64,000 nt of DNA from Arthrobacter alpinus. Its GTDB lineage: Bacteria; Actinomycetota; Actinomycetes; Actinomycetales; Micrococcaceae. The translations under genes were made by a program, and so were the position numbers. Below the pieces are notes generated by a model. It saw only the letters and a list, made by a program, of their open reading frames with translations. It was not told the DNA's origin and did not search any database. The stretch spans positions 1,984,001 to 2,048,000 of the forward strand of contig NZ_CP012677.1 in the NCBI RefSeq assembly GCF_001294625.1, written 5' to 3'. Below are positions 13,252 through 43,001 of this stretch, piece after piece (positions within the stretch are counted from its first letter, which is position 1; each line of letters starts with the position of its first letter).

Positions 13252-13977
13252 ATGCAGGTAGTTGACATAACCATGATCAGCCTTCCTTTGCCCGAGGTCC
13301 GGATCTTTGCCCCATCGCCAGCCGCCGATCCCCCCACCACGCCAGCGGCGGTGGTCCCCGATGCCCTGTCGGGGCCAACGCTCCTGTGGGCTCTGGTGAT
13401 CGTCGCCGTCGTGGTGCTGATTGTCTCGATCTTTGTGCTCTGGGCCCGGCTGGGTGCCACCAAGGCTGCGCATGCTTCCAGCGACAGCATGATCCGCAGC
13501 TGGGTGGCCGCGATTTTGGTGGTGGGTCTGCTTCTTTTGACGGTGCTCTCTTTTGGACTACGGGACAGCACTCTTCGAAGCGCCCTGGTCGGCGGGATCA
13601 CGGCGTCCGTCGGTGTAGCCATTGCCTTCTACTTCTCCGCCAAGTCCGCCGACGCAGCCCGACAGGACGTCTTGAAGGCCGCTGCGGGAACAGCATTGGT
13701 CCCGGATCTGGTCGGGTGCACCTGGGAGGAGGCCAACACCAAACTGGGCACAACGGTCTTTAAGCTCGCGGCGGCCACGCCCTCCCACACGTCCAGCGAA
13801 TCCAGGCGAAAAGAACTCAAGGAAGCGAACCAGCGACCCGCAGGGACCGTCGCCTCCGCGGCCACGGCCGTGGGCACGGGCCCGAACGAGGCCCCTACCC
13901 AGAGGGTCGTCGCCCAGGACCCTACGCCGAACAGCAACGCCCTGAAGGGATCCAACGTGACCGTCTACTTCGACTAG
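13252..13977 (+). CDS. Membrane protein with a PASTA-like domain
   Basis: A 241-residue protein. Two hydrophobic segments follow a Pro-rich N-terminus (about 38-63 and 84-104), with a third near 115-135. Then comes a soluble region that begins VPDLVGCTWEEANTKLG and ends VVAQDPTPNSNALKGSNVTVYFD, the start and end of a single PASTA fold. PASTA domains usually bind peptidoglycan fragments. Here no kinase or penicillin-binding domain is attached. The start at 13252 is chosen because AGGGGG lies ahead of it. That site falls inside a small hairpin (see findings). It ends on a CTAG shared with the convergent permease gene. Confidence 0.7.
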   Translation: MQVVDITMISLPLPEVRIFAPSPAADPPTTPAAVVPDALSGPTLLWALVIVAVVVLIVSIFVLWARLGATKAAHASSDSMIRSWVAAILVVGLLLLTVLSFGLRDSTLRSALVGGITASVGVAIAFYFSAKSADAARQDVLKAAAGTALVPDLVGCTWEEANTKLGTTVFKLAAATPSHTSSESRRKELKEANQRPAGTVASAATAVGTGPNEAPTQRVVAQDPTPNSNALKGSNVTVYFD

Positions 13978-15245
13978 CCCGCCACGCCGGACCGGGCATC
14001 GCGGCCCAGACGTGCCAGGCGGACCACGATGCCCACGGCAAAGACCGCGGCCCCCCAAGCTATCGACTCGCCGGGCAGCGTGGCCACCAGCACGGCACAG
14101 CCCAGCACCCCCAGCAGCTGCAGGGCCCTGGGGTACCGGCGGTCAGCGGGCGGCTGGGTCAGGGCTGACAGGTTAGCCACCAGGTAGTAGACCAGCACAC
14201 CAAAGGAGGAGAAGCCAATCATGCCCCGCAGGTCCGCCACGGCAATCACGGCGCAAATGACCACGGCCACGGCAACCTCGGCCCGGTGCGGGACACGGTA
14301 CCGCGGGTGAACCGCCGCCAAATACGACGGCAGGTCGCGTTCACGGGCCATGGCCAGGCTGGTCCGGCCAAGCCCCGCTATCAAGCCCAGCAACGCCCCC
14401 AAGGCGGCAATCGCCGCCCCCACTTGGACCACAGGAACGGCCCACAGCCACGGCCCGGACGCCACGGCGTCGGCCAGCGGCGTAGCTGACGCCGCAACGC
14501 CGTCGGCCCCCAGAACGGCCAGCAGTGTCACCGCCACCACGGCGTAGATGACCACAATCAAGGACAGCGCCACCACAATGGCCCGGGGTATGGTCCGCCG
14601 CGGATCCCGGACCTCCTCGCCCATCGTGGCAATCCGGGCATATCCGGCAAAGGCAAAGAACAGCAGGCCCGCCGATTGCAGGATCCCGTACCAGCCGTGA
14701 GCCAAGAGCCCGCTCCCGGTCACGGCGCCCAACCCCGCACCGCGGCCACCCCAGCTGGCCGCCACAGCCACGGCCAGCACCAGCAGGACCACGGTGACCA
14801 GGGTTCGGGTCAGGGCCGCCGTCTTGGTAACCCCGTGATAGTTGACGGCGACCAAAAAGATGACCGCTGCCATTGCCACGGGCCGCTGCCACCCGGCGGG
14901 AACGGCGTAGGCGGCAAAGGTCATGGCCATGGCCGCCGCACTGGCGGTCTTGCCCACCACGAATCCCCACCCGGCCACATACCCAGCCCACGGGCCCAGG
15001 CGCTCCCGGCCGTACAAGTAGGTGCCGCCGGAGGAGGGATAGGCGGCGGCAAGCTGTGCCGAGGACGTGGCGTTGCAAAAAGCCACCACCGCAGCCAGGG
15101 CGAGCCCGATGAGCAACCCGGCACCCGCAGCCGCCGCAGCCGGTGTGAACGCGACAAAGATGCCGGCCCCCAGCATGGAGCCCAGCCCGATCGTGACGGC
15201 GTCGAAGGTACCCAGGCGGCGGGCCAGCGGGGCCGGTGCGGTCAT
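13974..15245 (-). CDS. APC family amino acid permease
   Basis: A 423-residue inner-membrane transporter with about 12 hydrophobic segments. The family hallmarks are the first-helix glycine motif TIGLGSMLGAGIFVAF, SSGGTYLYGRERLGPWAGYVAGW in segments 2-3 (quoted in part), and GEEVRDPRRTIPRAI after helix 6. Substrate is probably an amino acid or amine, not specified further. The length is slightly short (usual 450-480). Its stop codon overlaps that of the convergent PASTA gene as CTAG. Confidence 0.88.
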   Translation of the reverse strand: MTAPAPLARRLGTFDAVTIGLGSMLGAGIFVAFTPAAAAAGAGLLIGLALAAVVAFCNATSSAQLAAAYPSSGGTYLYGRERLGPWAGYVAGWGFVVGKTASAAAMAMTFAAYAVPAGWQRPVAMAAVIFLVAVNYHGVTKTAALTRTLVTVVLLVLAVAVAASWGGRGAGLGAVTGSGLLAHGWYGILQSAGLLFFAFAGYARIATMGEEVRDPRRTIPRAIVVALSLIVVIYAVVAVTLLAVLGADGVAASATPLADAVASGPWLWAVPVVQVGAAIAALGALLGLIAGLGRTSLAMARERDLPSYLAAVHPRYRVPHRAEVAVAVVICAVIAVADLRGMIGFSSFGVLVYYLVANLSALTQPPADRRYPRALQLLGVLGCAVLVATLPGESIAWGAAVFAVGIVVRLARLGRDARSGVAG

Positions 15246-15328
15246 GAAAGGTACTCCTCGTTAGTGTGTGCACTCACCGCACCACATCATGGCGCGGTGC
15301 CGGTCCACTGACCATTATGGCTGTTGGA

Positions 15329-16610
15329 TCAGCCGCAGGCGGCCACTTCACCGCTGCTGCCCACGTCTGCGGAGCACACGCCGGTCTCCGGTAGCTGCAG
15401 TTCGAGCTTTGCGGCGGTTTCGTGGTTGCCTGCGAGCGCGGCGGCGATGGAGCGCACCTGCTCATAGCCTGTGGCCATGAGGAAGGTGGGGGCGCGTCCA
15501 TAGGATTTCATGCCCACCACGTAGAAGTCCTTCTCGGGGTGGGCCAGAACCGCGGCCCCGTGGGCAGGGACTGTGCCGCAGGAGTGAAATTCGGGGTCGA
15601 TGAGCGGGCCCAGCGCCCGCGGTGCTTCCACTGCCGGGTCCAGGTCCAGACGGAGTTCAGCGAGCATGCCCATGTCGTGGCTCAAACCCGTGGCGGGAAT
15701 GACGACGTCGGCCTGGATGGTCGCCTCCCCGGCAGGTGTGAGCCCGTGGATGCCCAGGACGGGGCCGGGGGTGAATCCGGTGATGGTGAAGGAGGTGTGC
15801 AGCGCCACGGTGCCCGATTCAACCAGTCTGCGCAGCCTGGTGCTGAGCATGCCGCGGGCAGGCAGCCCGTCCAGGTCCCCGCCCCCATAGAGACCGGCCA
15901 TGGAGTCGCCGCGCACCAGCCAGGTGACACTGGTGTGTGGGTGTTGCCTAGCAAGGTCCCCCAGGGCCAGCAGGGTGTTGGCAGCGGAGTGCCCGGCCCC
16001 CACCACCACTACGTGCTTGCCGGCGAGGCGCTCGCGGTCCGTTCCCAGCACATCGGGCAGGGGCCGGTAATGGCGGCAGCGGCGTCGGACTCCCCCGGGG
16101 CTGGCAGCCCCGCCTGCCCCAACGGGTTGGTTGTGGCCCAGGTACCTGAGGCATCAATGACGGCCCGCGCCAGAAGGTCTTCACTGTCCCCGTTGCTGTG
16201 GCGGACCCGGACCAGGAAGGCAGCGTGTTCCCTGTTGGCTGAACGGGTCATATCCATCCCGAGGCGGCTGACGGCCGTCACGGAGTGGCCGAGCCGGAGG
16301 GTGGGTGCCAGCTGGGGTGTGCCGGCCAAGGGCATCAGGTAGTCCTGGACCAGTGAGCGGCCTGTGGGCAGGGAAGTCCCGCGCGGGGATTCCCACCCGG
16401 CGGCGGTGAGCAGGCGTGCCGAGGCGGGATCCACGTTGTACTGCCAGGGTGAGAACAACTTGATATGGCCCAGGCGGTGACGGCCGCCCCCACGGACTCC
16501 CCGGCCTCCAGGACCAGCGGGGTGAGGCCGTTTTCCAGCACATGGGCGGCGGCGGCCAGGCCCAGGGGTCCGGCGCCAATGACGATGACGGGCAGTTTGG
16601 GGGGGGTCAT
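15329..16610 (-). pseudogene. ArsO-like flavin monooxygenase, two one-base frameshifts
   Basis: An FAD/NAD(P)-binding monooxygenase of the type found in ars operons. The N-terminal FAD loop (VIVIGAGPLGLAAAAHV) is in one frame. The middle (HIKLFSPWQYNVDPAS) is in a second, and the NADP loop (HVVVVGAGHSAANTLLALG) plus C-terminus are in a third. Each change needs one missing base: a G near 16468-16471, where W-G-H is expected, and a C near 16060-16064, both in homopolymer runs. With these restored it would be a normal protein of about 427 residues. It is therefore either recently inactivated or mis-sequenced. It follows arsC on the same strand as the last gene of the ars operon. Confidence 0.72.
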
Positions 16611-16622
16611 GGTGCGGGCTTT

Positions 16623-17036
16623 CTAGGGTAGGAGGCTGGCGATGAGTGCTTGGACGCGGGATTTGATGTCGTCTCGGATGGGGCGGAGGGCGTCGACGCC
16701 CTGGCCTGCGGGATCTTCAAGGTCCCAGTCCTCATACCGCTTGCCGGGGAAGATCGGGCAGGTATCCCCGCAGCCCATGGTGATGACGACGTCGGACCCC
16801 TGCACTGCCGCAGTGGTCAGGACCTTGGGGGTTTGCTCGGACATGTCGATGCCCTCCTCCGCCATGGCGGCCACGGCGGCCGGGTTGACCGAATCGGCGG
16901 GCGCGGAGCCGGCCGACCGCACCTCGATGGCGCCGCCTGCGAGCGCGGACAGGTAGGCGGCCGCCATCTGGGAACGTCCGGCGTTGTGGACGCAAACAAA
17001 GAGGACGGAGGGCAACTTGCCAGTTGTTTCAGGCAT
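16623..17036 (-). CDS. arsC: Arsenate reductase, low-molecular-weight phosphatase type
   Basis: A 137-residue enzyme that reduces arsenate to arsenite. The catalytic loop is CVHNAGRSQM (Cys near residue 16, the CX5R motif of the LMW tyrosine phosphatase fold), and TMGCGDTCPIFPGKRYEDW carries the later conserved cysteines and the acid loop. Actinobacterial members commonly use mycothiol/mycoredoxin. The start at 17036 follows the acr3 stop by four bases with AAGGAG in the acr3 end, so the two are coupled. An in-frame extension upstream lies inside acr3 and is not used. Confidence 0.92.
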   Translation of the reverse strand: MPETTGKLPSVLFVCVHNAGRSQMAAAYLSALAGGAIEVRSAGSAPADSVNPAAVAAMAEEGIDMSEQTPKVLTTAAVQGSDVVITMGCGDTCPIFPGKRYEDWDLEDPAGQGVDALRPIRDDIKSRVQALIASLLP

Positions 17037-17040
17037 GGGA

Positions 17041-18135
17041 TCAGGCTCCTTGTGCTGGGGTGGGAAAGTAGCGGTTCCTGGACCAGAGGGCTGCGTAGAC
17101 CAGCGCCACCAGCACGGGCACCTCAATGAGGGGACCCACGACGCCGGCCAGGGCCTGTCCGCTTGTCACCCCGAAGGTGCCAATAGCCACGGCGATGGCC
17201 AGCTCAAAGTTGTTGCCGGCGGCGGTGAAAGCCAGGGTGACGGTTTTAGCGTAGCCCAGCCGCATTACCTTGCCGATCACCATTCCGGCGCCGAACACCA
17301 GGACAAAGTACACGAGCAGGGGCAGGGCGATCCGTGCCACGTCCTGCGGGCGGGAGGTGATGCTCTCACCCTGCAGGGAAAAGAGCAGCATGATGGTGAA
17401 CAGCAGGCCGTAGAGGGCCCAAGGCCCCAGTTTGGGCAGGAACGTGCCCTCGTACCAGCTGCGACCCTTGGCCTTTTCAGCAACCGTGCGGGTCAGGAAG
17501 CCCGCTAGTAAGGGGAGGCCGAGGAAGACCAGCACGCTCAGGGTGATGGTCCAGAAGGAGAAGTCCGCACTCGCCACGGGCAGGCCCAGCCAGGCGGGCA
17601 GGATCTGGAGGTAGAACCAGCCCATGGCGCCGAAGGCGATGACCTGGAACACCGAGTTCAGCAGGACCAGCACCGTGGCGGCTTCCCTGTCACCGCAGGC
17701 CAGCTCATTCCAGATCATCACCATGGCGATGCAGCGGGCCAGGCCCACAATGATCAGCCCGCTGCGGTACTCGGGCAAGTCCGGAACAAAGAGCCAGGCC
17801 AGGGCAAACATGAGTGCCGGGGCCAGCAGCCAGTTCAGGACCAAGGAGGTCACGAGCAGTTTCCTGTCCGCCAGCACCGGGCCCGTCTCGTCGTACCTGA
17901 CCTTGGCCAGCACCGGGAACATCATAACCAGCAGGCCGATGGCGATCGGCAACGAAATAGAGCCGAGCTTGACCGCCTCCAACGCCGTGTTGAGGCCGGG
18001 AACAAGACGCCCCAGCGCCAGGCCCAGGGCCATGGCGGCGATGATCCAGAGCGGTAGGAAGCGGTCCAGGGAGGAAAGCCGTCCCGCGGCAGCAGCCCGG
18101 GTGCCCTTCGGAGGGGATTCAATGCTGGTACTCAC
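17041..18135 (-). CDS. acr3: ACR3 family arsenite efflux transporter
   Basis: A 364-residue inner-membrane arsenite exporter with ten hydrophobic segments. ACR3 hallmarks are MMFPVLAKVRYDE in the first third, a conserved cysteine in the helix WNELACGDREAATVLVLLNS, and a late helix with AAGNNFELAIAVAIGTFG. Translation is placed at GTG 18133-18135. Longer in-frame readings would run through the arsR operator and into arsR. First gene of the acr3-arsC-arsO-like operon, divergent from arsR, and expelling the arsenite produced by ArsC. Confidence 0.93.
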   Translation of the reverse strand: MSTSIESPPKGTRAAAAGRLSSLDRFLPLWIIAAMALGLALGRLVPGLNTALEAVKLGSISLPIAIGLLVMMFPVLAKVRYDETGPVLADRKLLVTSLVLNWLLAPALMFALAWLFVPDLPEYRSGLIIVGLARCIAMVMIWNELACGDREAATVLVLLNSVFQVIAFGAMGWFYLQILPAWLGLPVASADFSFWTITLSVLVFLGLPLLAGFLTRTVAEKAKGRSWYEGTFLPKLGPWALYGLLFTIMLLFSLQGESITSRPQDVARIALPLLVYFVLVFGAGMVIGKVMRLGYAKTVTLAFTAAGNNFELAIAVAIGTFGVTSGQALAGVVGPLIEVPVLVALVYAALWSRNRYFPTPAQGA

Positions 18136-18170
18136 AGGACTTCTGGGCCTCTTCAAAGGAGATTGATGAA

Positions 18171-18205
18171 TGTCGATATACGAAGTATTGAACGCTATAT
18201 CGACA
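18171..18205. promoter_or_regulatory. ArsR operator between acr3 and arsR
   Basis: A perfect 10-bp inverted repeat, TGTCGATATA (18171-18180) and TATATCGACA (18196-18205), with a 15-bp spacer, lies in the gap between the divergent arsR and acr3 genes. Its size, A/T-rich core and place fit an operator at which ArsR represses both transcription units and from which arsenite releases it. Confidence 0.75.
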
Positions 18206-18233
18206 GTTGTCAATCTAAGGGCATAATGGTTAC

Positions 18234-18584
18234 ATGACCACCGCACCCGCCCTTGAGGACAGCACGGAGCAGGACTGCTGCACGCCCGCCGTCACGTCCG
18301 TGCTCGACGCGCAGACGGCACATCAGAGGGCCCGCACCTTCAAGGCGCTCGCGGACCCGAACCGCCTGCGCCTGCTCTCCATCGTGAAGGCCGGCAGCCT
18401 CAACGGAACGTGCGTGTGCGATCTGACGGAGCCCTTGGAACTGGGCCAGCCCACTGTCTCCCACCACCTGAAGATCCTGGTCGACGCCGGATTCCTGGCA
18501 CGCGAAAAACGTGGCACCTGGGCTTTCTACTCGATGGTTCCCGGGGCACTTGATGCCGTCACAGAGACGTTGCTCGGCCTGTAA
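18234..18584 (+). CDS. arsR: ArsR family arsenite-responsive repressor
   Basis: A 116-residue winged-helix repressor. The core runs from RARTFKALADPNRLRLLSIV through the recognition helix (QPTVSHHLKILVDAGFL) to the wing (REKRGTWAFYS). Candidate As(III) ligands are a Cys15-Cys16 pair at the N-terminus, as in corynebacterial ArsR, and Cys60/Cys62 in GTCVCDL. It should repress itself and acr3-arsC through the palindrome at 18171-18205. The retron RNA begins 28 bases after its stop with no terminator seen between. Confidence 0.93.
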   Translation: MTTAPALEDSTEQDCCTPAVTSVLDAQTAHQRARTFKALADPNRLRLLSIVKAGSLNGTCVCDLTEPLELGQPTVSHHLKILVDAGFLAREKRGTWAFYSMVPGALDAVTETLLGL

Positions 18585-18612
18585 GAGCGACCCATCGGCT
18601 AGGGTGGCAGCA

Positions 18613-18777
18613 TGCGACGGCCAATGGATGAGGCGGGAGAAACACTTTGTGTTCATCCCTCTCCGGGGTTACCCCGGGGTACGCAGTATTGCCTGGACCA
18701 TGCACCGCTGGTGCCTCACTGCGCTGCGCGCAGCCGGGCACCAGCACAGACAGCCAAGTCATCCGTTAGCCGTCGCA
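18613..18777 (+). ncRNA. Retron msr-msd non-coding RNA
   Basis: The element is bounded by a 19-nt inverted repeat: a1 TGCGACGGCCAATGGATGA (18613-18631) and a2 TCATCCGTTAGCCGTCGCA (18759-18777). They pair with 17 Watson-Crick pairs, one G-U and one mismatch. Inside are the stem-loops expected of msr: AACAC-TTT-GTGTT (18641-18653) and CCGGGG-TTA-CCCCGG (18663-18677). A long msd-type hairpin follows, with outer arms GCTGGTGCC (18708-18716) and GGCACCAGC (18737-18745) and an inner CTGCGC-TGC-GCGCAG stem. The repeat ends four bases before the reverse transcriptase ATG. A TAGGGT (18600-18605) could be the -10, putting the transcript start at the a1 boundary. The branching guanosine probably lies just after a1 but cannot be fixed by eye. 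Confidence 0.82.
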
Positions 18778-18781
18778 GCCC

Positions 18782-20146
18782 ATGATTGACAAGGGATCAG
18801 CCGTGCTGGCAAGGACACCGCACCCCTCGCCAGAGGCGGTGTCCACGGCCCTAGCTGATGCCTTCCTGGCAGCGGAGCAGTGGAACGCCGAGGCACTAGC
18901 GCGCGCCGGCAACCACACCTGTGGATCACCACGGCGCTGGATCACCACGCTTGCCGCGCACATCGTTGCCAGCTACCCCCGTCCACCCGTGGATGCACCT
19001 CGCGAGCTCGCCGCCGTGGTGCGCCAGAGCAAGCCCTTCACCCGGGCGCTGGCCCGGGCCTCCCGCACGGGCAAGCCGCTGCCATTGAAGCATTACACCC
19101 TGGATCCGGCCGTGGCGCGCCACTCACCCCTGGACGTCCCCGACATTGGCAACCTGAGTGAACTGGCCCGGCTCCTGGGCATCACCCCGGGCGAGCTGGA
19201 GTGGTTTGCGGACCCCAAACACCTCAACCGCAACGCCGCCCCCATCCTGGCGCACTACCGCTACGTATGGCACACACGCCCGGGCCGCGTGCCCCGGCTC
19301 CTGGAGGTTCCGGCTCCCCGCCTGCGCGCCCTGCAACGCGTGGTTCTTTCGCAGCTGCTCTGTCCCATCCCGCCGCACCCGGCCGCCCACGGCTTTGTGC
19401 CCGGCCGCAGTGCTGTAACTGGAGCCGGCGCACATACCGGAAAGCTGGTGGTGGTCAACCTTGACCTCGCCACCTTCTTTGCCAAGGTGACCGCCGGTAG
19501 GGTCTTTGGCGTGATGCGCCAGGCCGGCTATGCGGAGGCGGTGGCGCACAGGCTCACCGGGCTGTGCACACACCGGGTTCCGGCCCGGGTCCTCTCACAG
19601 ATGCCGCCCGGCGGGGATCCTGCCGACCGTTTTGCCCTGCGGCAGGCCCTGGCGCTTCCACACCTGCCGCAGGGCGCCCCCACCTCGCCCATGCTGGCCA
19701 ACCTGGCGGTGCGGCGGATGGATTCCCGGCTGGCTGGCTGGGCCCGGAGGTTCGACGCCGGATACACCCGCTACGCCGACGACCTCGCCTTCAGCGGCGG
19801 CAGGGACCTAGCCAGGGGCGCCGATGCCTTCATTGCCGGGGTGGGCCGGATTGTGGCGGACGAGGGCCACCGCCTCAACCACCGCAAAACCCGGGTGCGC
19901 GGGGCCAGCGCACGCCAAAGCGTCACAGGGGTGGTGGTCAACGCCCACCCCAACGTGCGCCGCACCGACATTGACCGGCTCAAGGCGATCCTGCACAACT
20001 GCGCAACCTACGGGCCGTCCTCGCAAAACCTGGAGGGCCACGCCGAATTCCAGGCCCAGCTGCTGGGGCGCATCGCCTGGGTTGCCGGCGTCAACCCGCA
20101 CCGCGGGGCCCAGCTGCGCGCAGTTTATCGGCGAATCAGCTGGTAG
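18782..20146 (+). CDS. Retron reverse transcriptase
   Basis: A 454-residue RNA-directed DNA polymerase. Residues 1-120 are an extension without a motif I can name. The retron-type core starts at NLSELARLLGITPGELEWF. Fingers and palm follow: AAHGFVPGRSAVTGAGAH (the NAxxH region, with the first Asn not conserved), motif A NLDLATFF with catalytic Asp228, LPQGAPTSPMLANL (295-308), and YADD (331-334) with the other two catalytic aspartates. The retron-type VTG is at 381-383 in the thumb. The protein should copy the adjacent msd RNA into multicopy single-stranded DNA. No intron domain X or endonuclease domain is present, so it is not a group II intron protein. No known effector gene follows. Confidence 0.9.
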   Translation: MIDKGSAVLARTPHPSPEAVSTALADAFLAAEQWNAEALARAGNHTCGSPRRWITTLAAHIVASYPRPPVDAPRELAAVVRQSKPFTRALARASRTGKPLPLKHYTLDPAVARHSPLDVPDIGNLSELARLLGITPGELEWFADPKHLNRNAAPILAHYRYVWHTRPGRVPRLLEVPAPRLRALQRVVLSQLLCPIPPHPAAHGFVPGRSAVTGAGAHTGKLVVVNLDLATFFAKVTAGRVFGVMRQAGYAEAVAHRLTGLCTHRVPARVLSQMPPGGDPADRFALRQALALPHLPQGAPTSPMLANLAVRRMDSRLAGWARRFDAGYTRYADDLAFSGGRDLARGADAFIAGVGRIVADEGHRLNHRKTRVRGASARQSVTGVVVNAHPNVRRTDIDRLKAILHNCATYGPSSQNLEGHAEFQAQLLGRIAWVAGVNPHRGAQLRAVYRRISW

Positions 20147-35937: not shown

Positions 35938-36010
35938 GTGGGATTAGCTCAGTTGGCAGAGCGCCTGGTTGTGGTCCAGGAGGTCGCGGGTTCAACCCCC
36001 GTATCTCACC
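35938..36010 (+). tRNA. tRNA-His (anticodon GTG)
   Basis: A cloverleaf can be drawn with acceptor GTGGGAT (35938-35944) pairing with ATCTCAC (36003-36009) through one G-T, D-arm AGCTCAGTTGGCAGAGC, anticodon stem CCTGG/CCAGG around TTGTGGT, and T-arm CGGGTTCAACCCCCG. The anticodon GTG is at 35971-35973. The G at 35937 would be the extra G-1 typical of histidine tRNA. Confidence 0.95.
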
Positions 36011-36036
36011 CCAAGGTGTTTCCACAGGACACACAA

Positions 36037-42612: not shown

Positions 42613-43001
42613 GGTGGATAGGGCGTCCTGTACGCCGGGTTTTGTCGTCCGCCGCAGTTACCCCGCTGCGGAGAGGCAACCATCCATCTACGGACGCCGT
42701 TACCGACGCCCTCTAGCAGCCTACCCAGGCACTCGGGCGAACAGCCCTCAGTCATGCCCTGTCTGGCCTTGCTCCGGGTGGGGTTTACCAAGCTTCCCCA
42801 GTCACCTGGGGAACTGGTGGTCTCTTTACACCACCGTTTCACCCTTACCTGCGCGGCATTGCTGCCGTGCTGGCGGTCTCTTCTCTGTGGCACTTTCCTG
42901 CAGGTTACCCCGAGTGGGTGTTACCCACCACCCTGTTCTGTGGAGCCCGGACGTTCCTCGAGCCACTTGCGTGACGCGCGGTTGCCCAGACGCCCTATCC
43001 A
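42613..43001 (-). ncRNA. rnpB: RNase P RNA, bacterial class A
   Basis: Read on the minus strand, GGATAGGGCGTC near 43000 pairs with GACGCCCTATCC at 42616-42627 as helix P1. Universally conserved sequences follow in order: GAGGAACGTCCGGGCTCCAC, then ACAGGGTGGTGGGTAACACC, GGGTGAAACGGT, and AGATGGATGGTTGCCT near the 3' half. The size (about 390 nt) is as expected. This is the catalytic subunit that matures tRNA 5' ends. Its 5' end lies downstream of gap with a strong terminator between. Confidence 0.95.

Follow-up and report, generated by a model that had tools for sequence, protein, structure and literature searches.

A 64,000-nucleotide (nt) stretch of the genome of Arthrobacter alpinus (contig NZ_CP012677.1, positions 1,984,001 to 2,048,000; hereafter, the window) very probably harbors a complete retron, which consists of an msr-msd RNA (18613-18777 of the window) followed by a reverse transcriptase (RT; 18782-20146), both on the plus strand. 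An earlier note, made from the sequence alone, had described such an element in a genome of the Micrococcaceae type. The genome is indeed Arthrobacter-like, with Arthrobacter sp. GMC3 as the closest named relative found, and the retron identification is supported because the RNA bounded by the a1 and a2 repeats shows covariation, the RNA and the RT co-occur in the same 18 congeneric genomes, and the best sequence and fold matches of the enzyme are retron RTs. Neither a linked effector gene nor a recognized fused effector domain was found (34 related loci, open reading frames (ORFs) of at least 100 amino acids; Pfam). The element is most likely a two-part retron in which a domain at the front of the RT would replace the separate effector.

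Structure and conservation of the msr-msd RNA

The 19-nt inverted repeat (a1, 18613-18631; a2, 18759-18777) was confirmed as described in the earlier note, with 17 Watson-Crick pairs, one G-U pair and one C/A mismatch. A scan of the window for comparable repeats (arms of 19 nt, 17 or more Watson-Crick pairs, spacing of 80-200 nt) detected no second one. The RNA (18605-18785) folds at -98.1 kcal/mol, compared to a mean of -69.0 (standard deviation 4.3) for shuffled sequences (z -6.8; 0 of 200 shuffles as good), and the predicted fold contains the two msr stem-loops and the single long msd hairpin that had been noted. Stem-loop 1 (18635-18659) is supported by the fold and the alignment, stem-loop 2 (18661-18679, CTCCGGGGTTACCCCGGGG) shows almost no variation among close relatives, and the msd hairpin (18707-18745) is formed by the arms GCTGGTGCC and GGCACCAGC. 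The template of the multicopy single-stranded DNA (msDNA) is predicted to comprise roughly 60-75 nt (18690-18757), its ends being placed by analogy with Ec86. The predicted priming (branching) guanosine, 18632 in the context GAGG, was likewise assigned by analogy with known retrons (rule from the relevant passage of PMC6868368). A -10-like box, TAGGGT (18600-18605), is located 7 nt upstream of a1. No Rfam family matches the RNA.

Wide neighborhoods of 34 related loci were taken for comparison of the RNA and the gene context. An RNA with a CCGGGG-loop-CCCCGG stem is present upstream of the RT in 31 of these loci (30 by a strict pattern and L045 by a relaxed one). In the other three, the RNA was found neither by pattern nor by the RNA model; these are L066, with an N-terminally truncated RT, L068, with an 89-residue RT remnant, and L069, with a distant RT. 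The main alignment comprises 31 rows, 29 of them distinct, and the structure named in it consists of 43 pairs, among which 24 show changes on both sides and 96.9% of the cells pair. None of 500 shuffles reached any of the covariation measures, and sliding the partner columns left only 41-47% pairing. The a1/a2 helix, for which a lack of covariation would have counted as a refutation in the earlier note, covaries, with 14 of its 18 pairs varying on both sides in this alignment. Of 17 further loci, 16 gave a match to an RNA model derived from the 31 rows (E≤1.3e-6); they include more distant actinobacteria, Tsukamurella and Dietzia plasmids, and Burkholderia cenocepacia; the match in L074, a locus with a split RT, was weak (E about 0.01). 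In the model alignment of 23 rows (7 old and 16 new), which is fitted to the structure, 32 of the 43 pairs show both-side changes. The three apical pairs of the msd (CGC/GCG) are invariant in all 23 of these diverse rows whereas the outer msd pairs covary, suggesting that the sequence as well as the shape matters at the tip. A TA(G/C)NNT box occurs shortly upstream of a1 in all 31 related loci scanned, the fixed letters of this box being constant by construction because the pattern itself served as the anchor. The guanosine that corresponds to 18632 is present without exception, where it would be expected, in all 31 rows, in the context GAGG (30 rows) or GAGA (one row).

The reverse transcriptase and its N-terminal domain

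The RT (454 amino acids) contains the motifs that had been reported for it, LPQGAPTSP (residues 295-303), YADD (331-334) and VTG (381-383), the latter being the retron region Y motif in the definition taken from PMC4244168. The ATG at 18782 opens the longest ORF, yet no obvious ribosome-binding site precedes it; the GTG at 18803, preceded by AAGGGA, may be the actual start. The protein contains the general RVT_1 domain, and its best matches by sequence and by fold are retron enzymes. In the PADLOC profile ranking, shown for the window RT only, the top two profiles are RT_other (PDLC02949; 596 bits, profile positions 58-470 of 481) and RT_outgroup (PDLC03740; 554 bits, positions 6-407 of 407), with RT_XIII in third place (291 bits, RT residues 113-452). 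All 71 aligned homologs match RT_other and RT_outgroup (E≤0.001) and match other retron RT profiles as well. The group II model TIGR04416 (group_II_RT_mat) reaches 42 bits against a cut-off of 300. By profile and fold scores, the RT thus sides with retron RTs rather than with those of group II introns or diversity-generating retroelements (DGRs); a grouping outside the retrons, which the earlier note would have counted as a refutation, was not observed.

In front of the retron-like core, residues 17-96 (18830-19069) make up a domain of five predicted helices that has no Pfam match and no convincing match in the PDB. This domain is retained in the homologs retrieved with the window RT and in those retrieved with a Burkholderia protein.

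Distribution and inheritance

The full-length RT is present in 18 of the 23 congeneric genomes, and the RNA is present in the same 18, each in a single copy. Altogether, 20 congeners count as RT matches when a remnant (G018) and a distant RT (G004) are included; the remaining three (G009, G010 and G020) yielded no match. A relative with 79% identity has the same architecture. Genomes that encode the RT at E≤1e-40 number 31 of 295 in the family, 14 of 297 in the order and 5 of 396 in the phylum, in overlapping draws that also count the window's own genome. In the protein database, 5978 of the 7996 candidates scored are relatives at E≤1e-10, not all of which belong to the same family. Beyond the actinobacteria, locus L090 of Burkholderia cenocepacia combines an RNA that matches the same model with an RT that has a similar N-terminal extension and is about 50% identical to the window RT over residues 118-454; judging by these sequence matches, the retron family of the window reaches across phyla, B. 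cenocepacia included. No close relative of the RT was detected on viral contigs among the best 80 of 359 matches (the best-scoring one is 34% identical, the highest identity being 37%).

The site of the retron is common to the window and the nearest relative, and in G005 and G021, the epimerase gene that flanks the window retron lies more than 1 megabase away from the RT. Nine loci of three genera have other flanking genes in common, the RT being damaged in two of the nine (L066 and L068). The RT tree and the RF3 tree concur on two small groups, the RF3 tree being otherwise unresolved. At L068, the remnant locus of G018, the last 89 residues of the RT remain beside flanks that are common to loci with an intact retron, which suggests loss by decay. 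Separately, the RT match is in two pieces in L074 and L075, and contains one in-frame TAG in L086.

Limits of the conserved unit and its neighborhood

None of the DNA-similarity blocks that cover the retron begins before 18590 or ends after 20165. Separate additional blocks appear where flanks are shared, namely, in the nearest relative (both sides), G021 (upstream) and L049 (one 139-nt stretch). No family of ORFs (at least 100 amino acids, about 9 kb on each side, less at contig ends) is represented in more than 11 of the 34 loci; two families, found in 11 and 10 loci, are the largest and occupy varying positions, and most of the others track the loci with shared flanks. Comparison of 13 neighbors of the retron in the window with PADLOC yielded no convincing defence gene. 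Because similarity stops at the ends of the unit, no ORF family of this size is common to the loci and no convincing defence neighbor was found, the conserved unit appears, so far as sequence comparison can tell, to consist only of the promoter-like box, the RNA and the RT.

The upstream neighbors in the window encode an ArsR regulator, an SBF-type permease and a low-molecular-weight phosphatase-type protein; the downstream neighbor encodes an NAD-dependent epimerase. The upstream genes appear to be part of an arsenic-type cluster (13974-18584) that additionally includes an amino-acid permease and a protein whose monooxygenase match is below threshold; in the stretch compared, the nearest relative showed no similarity to the window between 13979 and 18590. 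The Dietzia plasmid copy (L092) adjoins a mercury reductase gene, as the window copy adjoins arsenic-type genes, which is possibly a coincidence. Elsewhere in the window are a bacterial RNase P class A RNA (42615-42997, minus strand, 294 bits) and tRNA-His (35938-36013).

Proposed mechanism and alternative explanations

Given that no separate effector was found, the N-terminal domain most likely is, or recruits, the output of the retron. Under this scheme, the transcript would begin at or near a1, and a1/a2 pairing would fold the RNA. The RT would prime from G18632, just inside a1, and copy the msd hairpin into a branched msDNA (roughly 60-75 nt), to which the enzyme would remain bound. The five-helix domain could then be a built-in effector or a dock for a host protein, and phage interference with the msDNA would release or switch this domain. 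The parts of this scheme differ in likelihood. Production of msDNA by the window retron is highly probable. An anti-phage role is slightly favored; because no effector gene was found travelling with the retron, the role of this RT group in phage defence is unproven. The role of output module is assigned to the N-terminal domain only tentatively. The broader proposal appears doubtful at this stage; it holds that the domain represents a new class of built-in retron effectors or sensors, that a single protein suffices for defence in these apparently effector-less retrons, and that the invariant CGC/GCG tip would be the part of the msDNA that is monitored, for instance, for being cleaved, methylated or bound by protein.

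Several observations weigh against a complete two-part retron with a built-in output. The N-terminal domain does not belong to any recognized catalytic or toxin family, and it was found as a stand-alone protein only once (P0241, 92 amino acids), in a fragment-like form. The neighborhood, with arsenic-type genes upstream and the epimerase gene downstream, does not resemble a defence island. The priming context is AGG instead of the AGC that is usual in retrons, and variants such as CAGA are known (PMC6868368). Among the 71 homologs, YADD is present in 70, and the VTG motif, present in the window RT, is intact in only 35 (LAG in 23, other variants in 13). Region X reads GAGAH rather than NAXXH, with A and H retained and N changed; according to a passage of PMC4244168, NAXXH is found between RT domains 2 and 3 in 59% of retron sequences, and within the retrons that bear it, H is always kept, A is kept in 87% of cases and N is kept in 62%.

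Alternatively, a complete retron could depend on an effector gene at another genomic location, the N-terminal domain only aiding RNA or msDNA binding. No common linked gene was found in the 34 neighborhoods, as would be expected in this case, and retrons without clear proximal effectors are noted in part of a review (PMC8867640). However, transfer would separate the unit from its partner, and yet, the unit occurs at varying chromosomal locations in the genus, on plasmids of Tsukamurella and Dietzia, and in Burkholderia, so that an unlinked effector is disfavored. A complete retron could also be kept for a housekeeping or stress function instead of phage defence, in the manner of the myxobacterial retrons for which vertical inheritance is described (PMC6868368, in part). 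The single copy in 18 of 23 congeners, the nine loci of three genera with common flanking genes (including the two with a damaged RT) and the lack of close relatives among the best viral-contig matches are consistent with such a function. We consider it unlikely, however, given the loss and decay within the genus (three congeners without a match and the remnant in G018) and a distribution in the family and the phylum that is patchy, as that of defence systems is.

The remaining explanations concern the identity and integrity of the element. The one a1/a2 mismatch and the remnant in one congener could point to a decayed or inactive retron; the intact ORF, the catalytic YADD, the conserved RNA and the relative that shares this architecture at 79% identity make this very improbable. 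From the general RVT_1 domain and the TIGR04416 score, it could be argued that the RT is that of a group II intron, a DGR or another non-retron element and that the hairpin next to it arose by chance. This explanation is in effect refuted by the a1/a2 covariation, the strict co-occurrence of the RNA and the RT, and the retron-best sequence and fold matches (DGR template and variable repeats were not searched separately).

Novelty and implications

The earlier note emphasized an actinobacterial retron with an intact RNA. The intact RNA is confirmed but the novelty was overrated: PADLOC already contains profiles for the RT group, and predicted actinobacterial retrons are in print, so the window retron is not a new kind. 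Predicted actinobacterial retrons are cited in a section of a 2019 review (PMC6868368), a Rhodococcus gene is labelled a retron in a passage of PMC6498646, and a survey of 938 cold-adapted genomes gives a count of 83 PADLOC retron RTs (PMC11124354, in part), some of which may belong to the group of the window RT. A full-text literature search for retron and Arthrobacter produced no paper on Arthrobacter retrons, as judged by titles, and no paper on actinobacterial msr-msd RNA was among the literature matches listed, as judged by titles and the beginnings of abstracts. What appears to be new is the detail, that is, a conserved unit apparently confined to the promoter-like box, the RNA and the RT, with a front domain that lacks a Pfam or convincing PDB match.

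Retrons without a recognized effector are an unsolved problem for which this family offers a clean case, with one RNA, one protein and one copy. The family is present in most congeners examined, the RNA is conserved enough for modelling across phyla, and the front domain lends itself to deletion. For DNA writing in high-GC Gram-positive hosts, an actinobacterial retron would also be a candidate tool.

Comparison with known retrons

Ec86 (Eco1) aligns with the window RT from about window residue 111 onward and, in that alignment, lacks an equivalent of the N-terminal domain; furthermore, its effector is a separate one, according to the title of 7v9x, whereas none was found linked to the window retron. 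The RT_other and RT_outgroup profiles of PADLOC cover nearly the whole window RT, the N-terminal domain included; no effector or mechanism is assigned to them in the output, and the RNA has no Rfam family. The type XIII retron RT is the next-best profile, with half the score, and leaves the N-terminal domain outside the match. The myxobacterial retrons Mx162, Mx65, Sa163 and Ne144 are not known to have an effector, and of these, Mx65, judged by its name, is closer in msDNA size to the window retron. By description, in the passages of PMC6868368 devoted to them, these four retrons also possess an extended RT N-terminus of unknown function, and msDNA was found in 27 of the 28 myxobacterial strains tested. 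According to the same passages, the msDNA of Mx162 is 162 nt long, compared to the roughly 60-75 nt predicted here, and the priming context is CAGC in Mx162 and Sa163 and GAGC in Mx65, compared to GAGG in the window retron. If the front domain is indeed a built-in effector or sensor, and if this is valid for the myxobacterial retrons as well, it would explain what the first-discovered retrons do.
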